In this document: positions 27,716 to 32,676 of the stretch, piece after piece
Layout of the letters: each line of letters begins with the position of its first letter
Position numbering within the stretch: the first letter of the stretch is position 1
DNA from: Planctomycetaceae bacterium
GTDB taxonomy: Bacteria > Planctomycetota > Planctomycetia > Planctomycetales > Planctomycetaceae
NCBI GenBank assembly: GCA_028284885.1
Contig: JANQQW010000056.1
Coordinates: 1 to 32,676, forward strand
Direction of reading: 5' to 3'
Length of the DNA stretch: 32,676 nucleotides
Position numbers and translations under genes: made by a program
The notes under the pieces: model-generated
What the model saw: only the letters and a program-made list of their open reading frames with translations
Database searches by the model: none
What the model was told of the DNA's origin: nothing

Positions 27716-29089
27716 TCACTTCCCGATGCAGTACAGCATCTCCTGCCGTCCCCCGGGGCCACGGTTGGCGACGCGGGCGTAGATCTTGTTGCCGACGAAG
27801 GTCTGGGTGGCGAAGGACTCGGTGCCGAGTTGGTTCTTGGCGACCGGGCGGAACTCGTCGGGGGTGGCGGCGAAGACGAAAGTAGTTCCCTTCTCGTTCG
27901 TCGCGTAGACGTGGCCGTTGGCGAGAACGGGGGAGGCGGAGACCGGGCCGACGAGGCGTTCTCGCCAGAGTTCCTCACCGGTCTGGCCGTGCCAGCAGAA
28001 GGCGATGCCGTTGTCGGTGACGGCGTAGACGTGGCCGCCGGTGGCGAGCATCGACTGCTCGTAGCACTTCTGGGTGTTCGTCCAGAGGATCTCGCCGCTG
28101 CCGTCGGCCTTCACGGCGATGGTCTGCTTCCGCGGGTAGCCGCCGCTGGCGTAGACCGTGTCGCCGTCCCAGACCATGGTCCCGCAGGTCGCCATGGTGG
28201 TGCCGGCGACCGCCCACAGCAGCTTGCCGGTGGCGGGGTCGTAGCTGGAGACCTTCTCGCAGCCGCTGATGAGGAGTTGGTCGCGCCCGGCGACGTTCGC
28301 GACGATGGGCGAGGAGAAGCTGAGCTTCTCGGGGCGGTCGGTCTGCCAGGCGGGCTTGCCGGTCGCTCGTTCGAACGCCTTGATCCAGCCGCCGTCCTCG
28401 TAGTCGCCGGAGACGATGACGAGGTCGTCGTAGAGGAGGGGCGAGGGGGCGTAGCCGTACTCGTAGAGCTGCGGGTCGAACGGTCCGACGACCTTCTCCC
28501 AGGCCGGCTTGCCGTCGAGGTCGAGGGCGGTGAGGGTGACCTTGGCGTGGTGGTGGAAGGCGGCGAAGACGTGCTTGCCGTCGCAGGCGACGGTGCAGGT
28601 GGCGTGGGTGTTGTTGGGGTGGGTGCGGGGGAAGCCGCCCTGGCTGACGTCCCGCTTCCACCTCGGCTTGCCGGTCGCCCGGTCGAAGGCGAGCACGGAC
28701 TGGACCTGCTTCTGTTCGTCCGCGGTCGCCATGTAGATGGTGTCGCCGACGATGGTGGGGGAGGAGTGGCCGCGACCGGGGACGGGCGTCTTCCAGAGGA
28801 CGTTCTTCGTCTCGCTCCACTCGGTGGGGGGCTCCTGCCCCGTGGTGGTGCCGTTGTAGTTCGGTCCCCGCCACCACGGCCAGTCGCCTTCGGCGGCCTG
28901 CAGGATCTTCGACGGGGCGGCCGAGAGGGAGGTCTCGGTGGTGTCGGTGCTGGTCTCGGTCGGCTCGGCGGTGGGGGTGCCGGTCTCGGTGGTGTTCGAC
29001 GGCGACGTGGCGGACTCGGCGTCGCCGCCGCAGCCGAGGAACAGCGTCAGCGGGGCGAGAAGGAGGGTCAGCAGGGCGAAGCGGGGCAT
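27716..29089 (-). CDS. PQQ-like beta-propeller lipoprotein
   Basis: A 457-residue predicted lipoprotein. MPRFALLTLLLAPLTLFLGC gives a lipobox ending at Cys20. A Thr/Glu-rich linker (~25-60) follows. From WPWWRGPNYNGTT the rest is a propeller of PQQ-like repeats with the tryptophan-docking pattern: VLAFDRATGKPRWKRD, LTALDLDGKPAWEKV, AFERATGKPAWQTDR, VSSYDPATGKLLWAVAG and AFCWHGQTGEELWRER. BamB-like family members bind outer-membrane assembly partners or act as quinoprotein-like scaffolds. No PQQ-ligating residues are evident, so cofactor binding is doubtful. The start is set by the lipobox; upstream in-frame sequence to 29272 is not protein-like. It is divergent from ribH. Confidence 0.9.
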   Translation of the reverse strand: MPRFALLTLLLAPLTLFLGCGGDAESATSPSNTTETGTPTAEPTETSTDTTETSLSAAPSKILQAAEGDWPWWRGPNYNGTTTGQEPPTEWSETKNVLWKTPVPGRGHSSPTIVGDTIYMATADEQKQVQSVLAFDRATGKPRWKRDVSQGGFPRTHPNNTHATCTVACDGKHVFAAFHHHAKVTLTALDLDGKPAWEKVVGPFDPQLYEYGYAPSPLLYDDLVIVSGDYEDGGWIKAFERATGKPAWQTDRPEKLSFSSPIVANVAGRDQLLISGCEKVSSYDPATGKLLWAVAGTTMATCGTMVWDGDTVYASGGYPRKQTIAVKADGSGEILWTNTQKCYEQSMLATGGHVYAVTDNGIAFCWHGQTGEELWRERLVGPVSASPVLANGHVYATNEKGTTFVFAATPDEFRPVAKNQLGTESFATQTFVGNKIYARVANRGPGGRQEMLYCIGK

Positions 29090-29258
29090 GTGTGCGGTTC
29101 CTGTCCGTGGTGGGCGTTCCCGTTGGGCGGATTCTAACGGTCCCGGTTCGCCGGGTGGAGCGGCGAACGGCTTCCGAACCCGCCCGGCGGGAATCACGTT
29201 GGCCGACCGACTACCATGAAGGGTCCAACTGCTCCGACCGACTTCCCGAGTTCTCGCC

Positions 29259-29735
29259 ATGCCCACCGTCATCGAAGGTCGACACGTCGCCCCCGAGGGT
29301 CGCTTCGCGATCGTCGTCGCGCGTTGGAACGAACTGGTGACCGAGCGGCTGCTCGAGGGGGCGATCGCGACGCTGCGGCGGCACGGCGTGGACGAGGACC
29401 GCGTGACGGTCGTCCGCGTGCCAGGCTCGTTCGAGATCCCACTTGCCGCTCAGCGGCTGGCGAGCAGCGGCAAGTTCGCGGCCGTCGTCTGCCTGGGGGC
29501 GGTCGTCAAGGGGGAGACGACGCACGACGAGTACATCAACTCGCAGGTGGCCGGAGGGATCGCCCGCGCCGGCGAGACGAGCGGCGTGCCGGTCGCGTTC
29601 GGCGTGCTGACCTGCCTGACGATGGAACAGGCTCTCGACCGTGCGGGCGGCAAGGCGGGCAACAAGGGCGAGGAGGCCGTGCTGGCGGCCCTGGAACTCT
29701 GCAGCGTGCTCGAACAAATCGACGCACTCGACTGA
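29259..29735 (+). CDS. ribH: 6,7-dimethyl-8-ribityllumazine synthase
   Basis: This 158-residue enzyme condenses 3,4-dihydroxybutanone phosphate with the aminouracil intermediate in riboflavin synthesis. [24 protein letters not shown] carries the substrate tryptophan position. [15 protein letters not shown] (54-68) and [16 protein letters not shown] (78-93) are diagnostic, with His89 as the catalytic base. [26 protein letters not shown] completes the active site. Length and motif order are normal for a capsid-forming lumazine synthase. Start ATG at 29259. The usual partner nusB follows, but a WD40 gene lies between. Confidence 0.97.
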
Positions 29736-29780: not shown

Positions 29781-30749
29781 ATGTCGTCGCGACGCCTCCC
29801 CGTGCTGTTGCTCGCCGTCGTCTGCTGTCCCGCGGTCGCCGAGGACAGACCCACTCAACGGGATCTGGTCTTCAGCCGAGACGGGACGCGGCTCGCGATC
29901 GACACGACGAAGGGCGTCGTGCTCTGGGACGTCCAGAAGCAGCAGAAGCTCCGCGTTCTAGGCGACCGGTTCAAGTCGCCCGCGATCTCGGCGGCGTTCT
30001 CGCCGGACGGCAAGTGGTTCGCCGCGCGACGACTGTGGAGCCTCTCGAACCCGCCCGTCGAGCGGAGGTGGCCGCCCATCGTGTACGGAAAATGGGGGCC
30101 GCCGACCGCCTTCGCCGCGGACGAACGGACCTACCTCGCCACCACGCCGCAACACGTCTTCCGGGTGGACCGCGACGTGCCGGCCGGCTTCGTCGAGATC
30201 CGAGACGTCGCCGAAGGTGAGAGCTTCGACGTGCTCGCCGGGGACGCCAGCGGAAAGAAGGTCGCCGTCGCCGGCATGAAGGACGAGCGACCGTTCCTCG
30301 AACTCTGGGACCTCTCTGGCGACGAGCCGCGACGGACGGTCGTGCTGAAGGGGCACGTCGGTGGCATTACGTCGCTGGAGTTCGCCAAGGACGGGAAGCG
30401 TCTGCTCTCCGGCAGCTGGGACGAGACCGTCCGGCTGTGGGACGTGGCGAGCGGCGAGTGCGTTCGCGTCTTCCGCGGGCACGTCTACACGGTCTACTTC
30501 GCCCAGTTCGGCGAGGACGAGAAGACCGTGCGCAGCGGCAGCTACAGCGGCGAGGTGCGGGAGTGGGACGCGGCCAGCGGAAAGCTGCTGCGGTCGCGGA
30601 CGAAGCAGAACTCGCTCGCCGCCGTCACGCGGGACGGAAAGCGGATCGCCTGGAGTGCCGGTGACGGCAAGGTCCGCATCGAGCGTCTCGGCGACGGCAA
30701 GCTGTTGCAGGAGATCGACTTGACGTCGCTGGCGGAACCCGTCGAGTAG
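29781..30749 (+). CDS. Secreted WD40-repeat protein
   Basis: A 322-residue protein with a signal peptide (MSSRRLPVLLLAVVCCPAVA). At least five WD-type blades can be seen, most clearly GHVGGITSLEFAKDGKRLLS with GSWDETVRLWDVASGECVRV, then GSYSGEVREWDAASGKLLR. Blades end in WD or WDV as expected. Such planctomycete proteins scaffold assemblies in the periplasm or paryphoplasm, but partners are unknown. The ATG has GGAGACGAG upstream. It sits between ribH and nusB in the same direction, 45 bases after ribH. Confidence 0.88.
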   Translation: MSSRRLPVLLLAVVCCPAVAEDRPTQRDLVFSRDGTRLAIDTTKGVVLWDVQKQQKLRVLGDRFKSPAISAAFSPDGKWFAARRLWSLSNPPVERRWPPIVYGKWGPPTAFAADERTYLATTPQHVFRVDRDVPAGFVEIRDVAEGESFDVLAGDASGKKVAVAGMKDERPFLELWDLSGDEPRRTVVLKGHVGGITSLEFAKDGKRLLSGSWDETVRLWDVASGECVRVFRGHVYTVYFAQFGEDEKTVRSGSYSGEVREWDAASGKLLRSRTKQNSLAAVTRDGKRIAWSAGDGKVRIERLGDGKLLQEIDLTSLAEPVE

Positions 30750-30946: not shown

Positions 30947-31924
30947 ATGGCCCGGCGTACCAAGGCCCGCGAAGTCGTCGTCCAGATGCTCTACCTCCGG
31001 GACCTCAACCCGGACGTGGACGCGGAGACGGTCCACGCGCTCATCGACGAGCAACTCCGGAGTGCCGACCTCCGCGAGTTCGCCTGGCGGCTGTTCGTCG
31101 GCGTCATCGAGTTCCGCGACCGGATCGACGAGAGGATTCAGGACGCGGCCGAGAACTGGGCCATCAAGCGGATGGCGCCGACCGACCGCAACGTTCTCCG
31201 GCTCGGTGCCTACGAACTGCTGCAGACCGACACGCCGCACCGGGTCGTGCTCGATGAGGCAATCGAAGTCGCGAAGCGGTTCGGCGGCGGGCAGTCGCCG
31301 CAGTTCGTGAACGGCGTGCTCGACCACCTCGTGCCGGCCGAGAAGCGAAAGGCCGCGGGCGAGTCACCGCGAGAGCCCTCGCCGGAGGGGACGACGATCG
31401 TCACCGAGTCGCTGCGGCTCGTGCCGGCGACCGAGGAGTCTCTGACCGCCGCTCTCGCGGGGCCGCTCGAACTGGGGAACGCGCTCGGCGTGACGGTCCC
31501 GGGCACGTGGCCGCCGGAGCACTTCGACGACGCGGCCCTCGAGTACGCCCGCGACCGCCTCGCCGAGGGGGACGCCCAGGACGGCTGGTGGACCTACTTC
31601 TTCGTCCACGCCCACGACGCGGTCGTCGTCGGGGCCGGCGGCTTCAAAGGCCCGCCGAACGACGACGGCCTCGTCGAGATCGGCTACTCGGTCGTCCCCG
31701 AGTTCCGCCGCCGCGGCTACGCGAAAGAGGCCGTCCGCGGGCTGGTGAAGCGCGCGTTCGAGACGCCGGCCGTCCGGACAATCGTCGGCGACACACTGCC
31801 GCTGCTGACCGCCTCGATCCGCACACTGGAGTCGTGCGGCTTCCAACCCATGGGAACGTCCCCGGAACCGGGCGTGCTGCGGTTCGCGGTGACGCGGGAG
31901 GGTTTGGCCGAGGCCACCGTCTGA
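30947..31924 (+). CDS. NusB antitermination factor fused to a GNAT acetyltransferase
   Basis: A 325-residue fusion. Residues 1-~132 are NusB, which with NusE binds boxA RNA to support transcription antitermination: MARRTKAREVVVQMLYLRDL, NWAIKRMAPTDRNVLRLGAYELL, PHRVVLDEAIEVAKRFGGGQ and FVNGVLDHLV are the usual blocks. After a short proline-rich linker (~133-150), residues ~150-320 form a GNAT acetyltransferase: EIGYSVVPEFRRRGYAKEAVRGLVKRAF carries the acetyl-CoA loop R-R-G-Y-A, and ASIRTLESCGFQPMG the closing strand. No stop codon or second start with a ribosome binding site separates them; a GTG at codon 129 is the only visible internal start. The ATG at 30947 is chosen from the NusB N-terminus. 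A sequencing frameshift that joined two genes is possible but unlikely, because both parts read well in one frame. Confidence 0.88.
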   Translation: MARRTKAREVVVQMLYLRDLNPDVDAETVHALIDEQLRSADLREFAWRLFVGVIEFRDRIDERIQDAAENWAIKRMAPTDRNVLRLGAYELLQTDTPHRVVLDEAIEVAKRFGGGQSPQFVNGVLDHLVPAEKRKAAGESPREPSPEGTTIVTESLRLVPATEESLTAALAGPLELGNALGVTVPGTWPPEHFDDAALEYARDRLAEGDAQDGWWTYFFVHAHDAVVVGAGGFKGPPNDDGLVEIGYSVVPEFRRRGYAKEAVRGLVKRAFETPAVRTIVGDTLPLLTASIRTLESCGFQPMGTSPEPGVLRFAVTREGLAEATV

Positions 31925-32032: not shown

Positions 32033-32676
32033 CTAACGTTCGACGGGGGCCTGCACCCGTTGCCTGCGTCGCACGAGGTGCGGCTTCGGGACCTGGCGTT
32101 GGCTGGCGGGCGCGCGACCACGTTTCGCCGACGAGCCGCCGGGGCGCAGGGAGAGCAGGGCCGGCAGCAGCACGAGGTCGCCGACGAGGGCGGTCGTCAG
32201 CAGGGTCGCCATCATGGTGCCGAAGCGCGCCGTCGGCGTGAACGGGCTGAGGGTGAGCGCCAGCATGCCGAGGCTGGCGACGACGGCCGCCTCGAAGATG
32301 GGCGCGCCGGTCGTCAGCAGGGCGGTGCGGGCCGCGCCCGGGGAGTCGTTCGTCTTGCGGTACTCGGCCTCGTAGCGGACCAGGTAGTGGAACGTGCCGT
32401 CGACGGCGATGCCGAGCGCGATGCTGGCGGTCAGCGTCATGCCGATGTCGACCGGGAAGCCGATCCAGCCGAGCGTGCCGAACACCAGGCAGATCGGCGT
32501 GAGGTTGGGGATCATCGCCACGAGCCCGGCCCGCAACGACTGCAGCGAGACGACCATCACGACCGAGATGATCAGGAAGGCGGTCGTGAAGCTCTGCCAG
32601 AAGCCGGTGAAGATCGCCTTCTGGGCGTGGTCGAGCAGCGGGGCGACGCCCGTGAACGTGATCGGCTCGCCGGCCG
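32033..32676 (-). CDS. RND/MMPL family transporter, C-terminal part (runs off window)
   Basis: The visible 213 codons are the C-terminal end of a large transporter whose start lies to the right of the window. Hydrophobic helices FQSFTTAFLIISVVMVV-type, AMIPNLTPICLVFGTLGWIG, GMTLTASIALGIAVDGTFHY and AAVVASLGMLALTLSPFT are typical of the second membrane bundle of MMPL/RND proteins. The segment D-I-G-M-T-L-x-A-S-I-x-L-G-I-A-V-D-G-T-F-H contains the conserved Asp of helix 10. The soluble porter domain is off the window. The substrate (lipid, hopanoid or drug) cannot be told. The basic tail after LLSLRPGG is cytoplasmic. Confidence 0.88.
   Translation of the reverse strand, partial: AGEPITFTGVAPLLDHAQKAIFTGFWQSFTTAFLIISVVMVVSLQSLRAGLVAMIPNLTPICLVFGTLGWIGFPVDIGMTLTASIALGIAVDGTFHYLVRYEAEYRKTNDSPGAARTALLTTGAPIFEAAVVASLGMLALTLSPFTPTARFGTMMATLLTTALVGDLVLLPALLSLRPGGSSAKRGRAPASQRQVPKPHLVRRRQRVQAPVER

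Follow-up and report, generated by a model that had tools for sequence, protein, structure and literature searches.

Structure and Genomic Context of the nusB Locus

The window analyzed in this study, i.e., the whole stretch of 32,676 nucleotides, represents an entire contig (C187; the contig end was deduced from the coordinates) of a Planctomycetaceae assembly, which comprises 6.47 Mb in 399 contigs and was rated 100% complete and 2.73% contaminated. On the forward strand, a single open reading frame (ORF; 30947–31924) extends from an ATG to a TGA codon (31922–31924) and encodes 325 amino acids, compared to approximately 130–150 residues for a stand-alone NusB protein. The ORF ends 752 bases before the contig end and encodes, on the same strand throughout, a NusB domain (residues 1–128; 30947–31330), a tail of 21 residues (residues 129–149, VPAEKRKAAGESPREPSPEGT; 31331–31393), and a GNAT N-acetyltransferase domain (residues 150–325; 31394–31921). 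The third-position G+C content ranged between 0.83 and 1.00 in each 30-codon stretch of this ORF, including the linker and the junction, indicating that the frame is coding throughout and does not represent a chance extension. Chance read-through was rejected as an explanation, given this composition and the complete second domain. A first-pass annotation of this DNA had described the nusB frame as running without interruption into a GNAT domain, which was confirmed for the full 325 codons by the continuous frame and its coding composition.

To place the locus in context, it was compared with 80 related nusB loci originating from 79 genomes plus one duplicate record (L036 and L109, taken as one contig and featuring an identical tail); these loci cover 79 of the 161 genomes in which the order scan detected a match to the fusion. 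The gene ribH, encoding lumazine synthase (29259–29735, forward strand; TIGR00114, 168.7 bits), is the usual upstream neighbor of nusB, preceding it in the same orientation in 66 of the 80 loci. In most of the relatives read, ribH and nusB lie near each other, whereas in the source genome they are separated by a gene for a WD40-repeat protein (29781–30749, forward strand; PF00400, 75.7 bits). No same-strand copy of the latter was detected in the 80 related loci, the one weak match (L115) being located behind nusB on the other strand. On the far side of ribH, a PQQ_2 beta-propeller protein with a lipoprotein-like N-terminus, as judged by eye, is encoded on the reverse strand (27716–29272) and adjoins this gene. 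Downstream of the fusion, a convergent gene for an MMPL/RND-type membrane protein (32033–32674, reverse strand; PF03176, 36.4 bits) is truncated by the contig end. Its product is 67% identical to that of the convergent gene located right behind a stand-alone nusB in a related genome (L073), with no GNAT gene in between. Altogether, three of the 80 loci showed an MMPL gene at this position, many loci being too short to cover it. The GNAT domain, therefore, fills a gap in an otherwise known gene order, which makes a chimeric contig unlikely.

The NusB Domain and Its C-Terminal Tail

Profile searches assigned residues 4–129 of the fusion to the curated NusB equivalog model TIGR01951 (127.2 bits; cut-off 88.35) and to PF01029 (115.8 bits; cut-off 23.1). 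The best solved structure found by sequence (phmmer) was 1tzt (E = 6.4e-21), which we take to be the NusB protein of Thermotoga maritima. The alignment of the 80 related loci contains 38 columns with an identity of at least 90%, all of which are retained in the fusion. Only two loci encoding a NusB domain are present in the genome, the second of which also encodes the methyltransferase domain of RsmB and represents RsmB (L002); this domain (Methyltr_RsmB-F) is absent from the fusion. The fusion gene is the sole stand-alone-type nusB in the genome. NusB usually acts together with S10 on boxA RNA, and since the genome features no other NusB, the NusB half of the fusion probably performs this ordinary function.

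In all 80 related loci, nusB stops after its own tail, which comprises between 3 and 304 residues (median 16) and in many cases starts with (V/I)P-x-EKR; the tail of L070, for comparison, reads IPDEKRESAGES and is followed by TAA. The first-pass annotation had referred to a proline-rich linker between both domains. The segment is indeed rich in proline (four of its 21 residues), but does not appear to be a special linker: as it resembles the tails of the 80 related loci, it is, judging from the sequence, the old and ordinarily variable NusB C-terminus, the stop codon of which was lost. The AlphaFold model of the whole fusion reached a pLDDT of 90.8 and a pTM of 0.58, with pLDDT values below 50 at residues 140–145. 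As expected, this prediction depicts two confident domains on a flexible tether, featuring no fixed mutual orientation.

The longest tail was observed in L067 (866–2320, reverse strand; genome G062, contig C708), where NusB is followed by 304 low-complexity residues of Pro, Ala, and Glu, including a run of TPEAV/TPEDV repeats; Pfam detected NusB alone in this protein. Such tails suggest that the NusB C-terminus is free to carry extra sequence.

The GNAT Domain

The second half of the fusion matched PF13302 at residues 189–300 (69.8 bits; cut-off 25.4) and also PF00583 (41.3 bits). The motif R-R-R-G-Y-A at residues 254–259 (31706–31723, forward strand), which lines up with the equivalent positions in 24 free-standing relatives, corresponds to the acetyl-CoA loop motif of GNATs. 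Moreover, the fusion retains W214, P237, G241, G257, S290, and L294, i.e., columns being invariant in 25 out of 25 sequences (the fusion itself and the 24 relatives). These results agree with the initial description of a complete GNAT domain with an intact acetyl-CoA loop. AlphaFold modeling of the GNAT half alone resulted in a mean pLDDT of 93.9 and a pTM of 0.90. The best Foldseek matches of this model were RimL, RimJ, AAC(6′)-Ib, SpeG, and similar enzymes with identities between 12% and 24%, and the best 50 matches listed were acetyltransferases, or annotated as such or as hypothetical proteins. A phmmer search of the GNAT half against solved structures returned no match at E-values up to 1e-3, whereas profile and fold searches did.

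These fold matches do not fix the acceptor of the enzyme. Models of RimJ and RimL were not listed for the fusion GNAT at E-values up to 0.01, and its scores stayed below the curated cut-offs for RimJ, RimL, and AAC alike. It matched AAC(6′)-type models only, and weakly so (AAC(6′), 22.1 bits; cut-off 280). Within the GNAT alignment, 12 of the 25 members weakly matched the RimJ model PRK10809 (best E-value 3.2e-6). For the fusion GNAT, a small molecule is no less likely to be the acceptor than a protein. The GNAT half retains its acetyl-CoA site, and the acceptor it had before the fusion is probably still acetylated. Among the members of this group, 14 of 25 also showed weak matches to the arsinothricin-resistance model ArsN1 (best E-value 3.3e-8), the fusion GNAT not being listed.

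Probable Traces of a Former GNAT Start Site

The GNAT half appears to begin exactly where free-standing relatives start. Codon 150 of the fusion is an ACG (Thr150; 31394–31396, forward strand), differing from ATG by one change, and an ATG is located precisely at this column in the free-standing relatives L086, L039, and L091. For the nearest relative (L134, genome G690), an in-frame TAA is followed by five codons other than ATG, GTG, or TTG and then by a TTG at the Thr150 column, which is, therefore, the earliest possible start of this gene. Other free-standing relatives, such as L038 and L089, start some residues further upstream. As codons one change away from a start codon are common (2472 of the 5783 internal codons in the long ORFs of the window), the ACG alone represents weak evidence, and it is the column match that counts.

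In addition, the motif GGAGG (31384–31388, forward strand) is located 5 nt before the ACG. At a spacing of 4–7 nt, it precedes 25 of the 5783 internal codons in the window's long ORFs, and applying a looser Shine–Dalgarno definition (any 5-nt match, spacing 4–11) raises this proportion to 5.6%; both background rates were computed after the motif had been noticed. GGAGG is, thus, a probable vestigial Shine–Dalgarno sequence of a former GNAT gene, providing supporting evidence rather than proof.

Distribution of the Fusion and of Its GNAT Domain

To evaluate the prevalence of the fusion, related genomes were searched at several taxonomic levels. Within the order, which consists of one family, 161 of 170 genomes matched the fusion, and, among the matches listed, the fusion itself was the only one spanning both halves. 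The family and order scans covered the same 170 genomes and are, hence, not independent. The phylum scan of 392 genomes at E-values up to 1e-44, a threshold at which a distant, lower-scoring fusion would be missed, likewise revealed no other match across both halves. In the class scan for the GNAT domain (397 genomes), no second NusB-GNAT fusion was found, the long frame of one genome (G220; 332 aa) being left out of the reading; the long open frame of another (G395; L091, 375 aa) contained no NusB-like sequence by eye. The viral collection did not contain a NusB-GNAT fusion either, and a scan of the named genomes' contigs yielded two planctomycete NusB loci, both being stand-alone. The expectation that several genomes would share the fusion together with its linker was, consequently, not supported in the 170 order genomes (among the matches listed) or the 392 phylum genomes. 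The source genome was the only one of its genus among the genomes searched, and the fusion was observed in this single assembly.

The GNAT domain alone was detected in 46 of the 170 order genomes (E-values up to 1e-3) and in 47 of the 397 class genomes (E-values up to 1e-10). Its nearest relative in the phylum scan (51% identity) originates from a genome of another class, in the order of which this GNAT was present in one of 17 genomes (E-values up to 1e-22). This patchy distribution suggests that the GNAT gene was acquired laterally. Separate nusB and GNAT genes in close relatives, with a stop codon where the fusion lacks one, had been proposed as an indication of an assembly error or local indel. 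Stand-alone nusB genes with their own stop codon were indeed found in all 80 related loci, but none of these matched the GNAT profile, i.e., no unfused GNAT gene was located directly behind nusB.

Proposed Origin of the Fusion and Alternative Explanations

The most plausible explanation, to which we assign a probability of approximately 70%, is a lineage-specific stop-loss fusion of nusB with a GNAT gene obtained by lateral transfer; both domains are probably active, and their coupling is probably incidental. In this scenario, a GNAT gene that was previously free-standing and possessed a ribosome-binding site of its own would have been placed immediately downstream of nusB and in frame with it. 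Subsequently, the stop codon of nusB would have disappeared, and the start codon of the GNAT gene, either ATG or TTG, would have changed to ACG. This order of events, including the unfused intermediate state, is the one we infer from the locus. The product would be one protein of 325 residues consisting of a normal NusB, a flexible tail of 21 residues, and a normal GNAT enzyme, and the link may be tolerated since the NusB C-terminus is free and hypervariable among related NusB proteins. The previously suggested recent join is well supported: the fusion occurred in one of 170 order genomes (among the matches listed), it probably contains a vestigial start site, and the flanking gene order is conserved.

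As the fusion was found in a draft assembly, near a contig end, and with no independent second copy, it may be asked whether a miscalled base, missing sequence, or a chimeric contig joined two adjacent genes artificially. Such an error is unlikely to have caused the join. Frame +1 is free of stop codons between 31308 and 31443, and none occurs in frame +2 between 31255 and approximately 31600, where the scan ended. As both frames thus stay open from the junction until well inside the GNAT region, the join is difficult to attribute to a one-base indel, and an artefact of this kind was rejected. Furthermore, a stop and a start codon would both have to be misread, the third-position G+C content remains steady over the join, and the upstream ribH and downstream MMPL genes fit the gene order of the relatives. 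Rather unlikely, too, is the production of some free GNAT protein from an internal start, either at the ACG (31394) or at one of the GTG codons at 31307, 31316, and 31331. These GTG codons are in frame and the ACG is preceded by GGAGG at 5 nt, but ACG is a very poor start: in an E. coli reporter study, it is one of four codons together reaching 0.1–1.5% of the ATG level (PMC6925171).

Functional coupling of both halves is possible in view of their physical linkage, but appears doubtful. NusB would bring the GNAT enzyme to the rRNA antitermination complex or to ribosome assembly, where acetyl-CoA supply would mark a ribosomal or transcription protein; conceivable, though improbable, targets include S10 or a further ribosomal protein that binds the rRNA while it is being transcribed, as well as NusA/NusG and RNA polymerase. 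If the halves cooperate, acetyl-CoA would be linked to rRNA synthesis. Such a role is in line with the fold being nearest to RimL, RimJ, AAC(6′)-Ib, and similar enzymes, with the weak RimJ matches of 12 of the 25 alignment members, and with the reported contribution of the antitermination complex to rRNA folding, maturation, and subunit assembly (PMC6614801). However, a coupled fusion is expected to be conserved, and it was found, among the matches listed, in one genome only. Moreover, AAC(6′)-type models are the only ones matched by the fusion GNAT, and weakly so, small-molecule acceptors being at least as likely, and the linker is flexible, with no docking predicted by AlphaFold. The physical link between NusB and GNAT is probably incidental.

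If real, the stop-loss fusion represents a core transcription factor in a two-domain form not previously described. Its origin can still be read from the position at which the start codon was lost, the remnant of the ribosome-binding site, and the former NusB tail now serving as a linker. It would also illustrate that a complete enzyme can be attached to the C-terminus of NusB even where the genome encodes no other NusB.

Comparison with Known Systems

The searched literature, consisting of titles, abstract openings, and few subscription papers, yielded no description of a NusB-GNAT fusion. The protein is a new domain combination of two well-known families. It resembles stand-alone NusB proteins (TIGR01951/PF01029) in residues 1–128, including all 38 family-conserved columns, and in its position behind ribH, but, lacking a stop codon there, continues beyond the usual tail into a GNAT domain. 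With free-standing Acetyltransf_3/RimJ-RimL-like GNATs (PF13302; L134, L086, and L038), it shares the fold, the acetyl-CoA loop, and 39–51% identity, and, in the case of L134 and L086, also the N-terminal start position; in contrast to the fusion, all three are separate genes.

RsmB, a known NusB-domain fusion also encoded in this genome, likewise combines an N-terminal NusB domain with an enzyme domain in one chain. However, RsmB methylates 16S rRNA and is widespread, and its NusB domain is paired with a methyltransferase instead of a GNAT. A further joined frame involving nusB at the same locus was identified in L077 (1774–2814, reverse strand; genome G167, contig C50), where RibH (PF00885) and NusB are connected in one uninterrupted frame by an acidic, Ser-Glu-rich linker. 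In L130 (genome G168, contig C70), belonging to the same genus as L077, a frame also runs into nusB via a repeat-rich stretch, the contig ending before ribH. As in the NusB-GNAT fusion, nusB is joined in frame with a neighboring gene in L077; however, the join is located at the NusB N-terminus, the partner is lumazine synthase, and the NusB ATG codon is kept at the junction.
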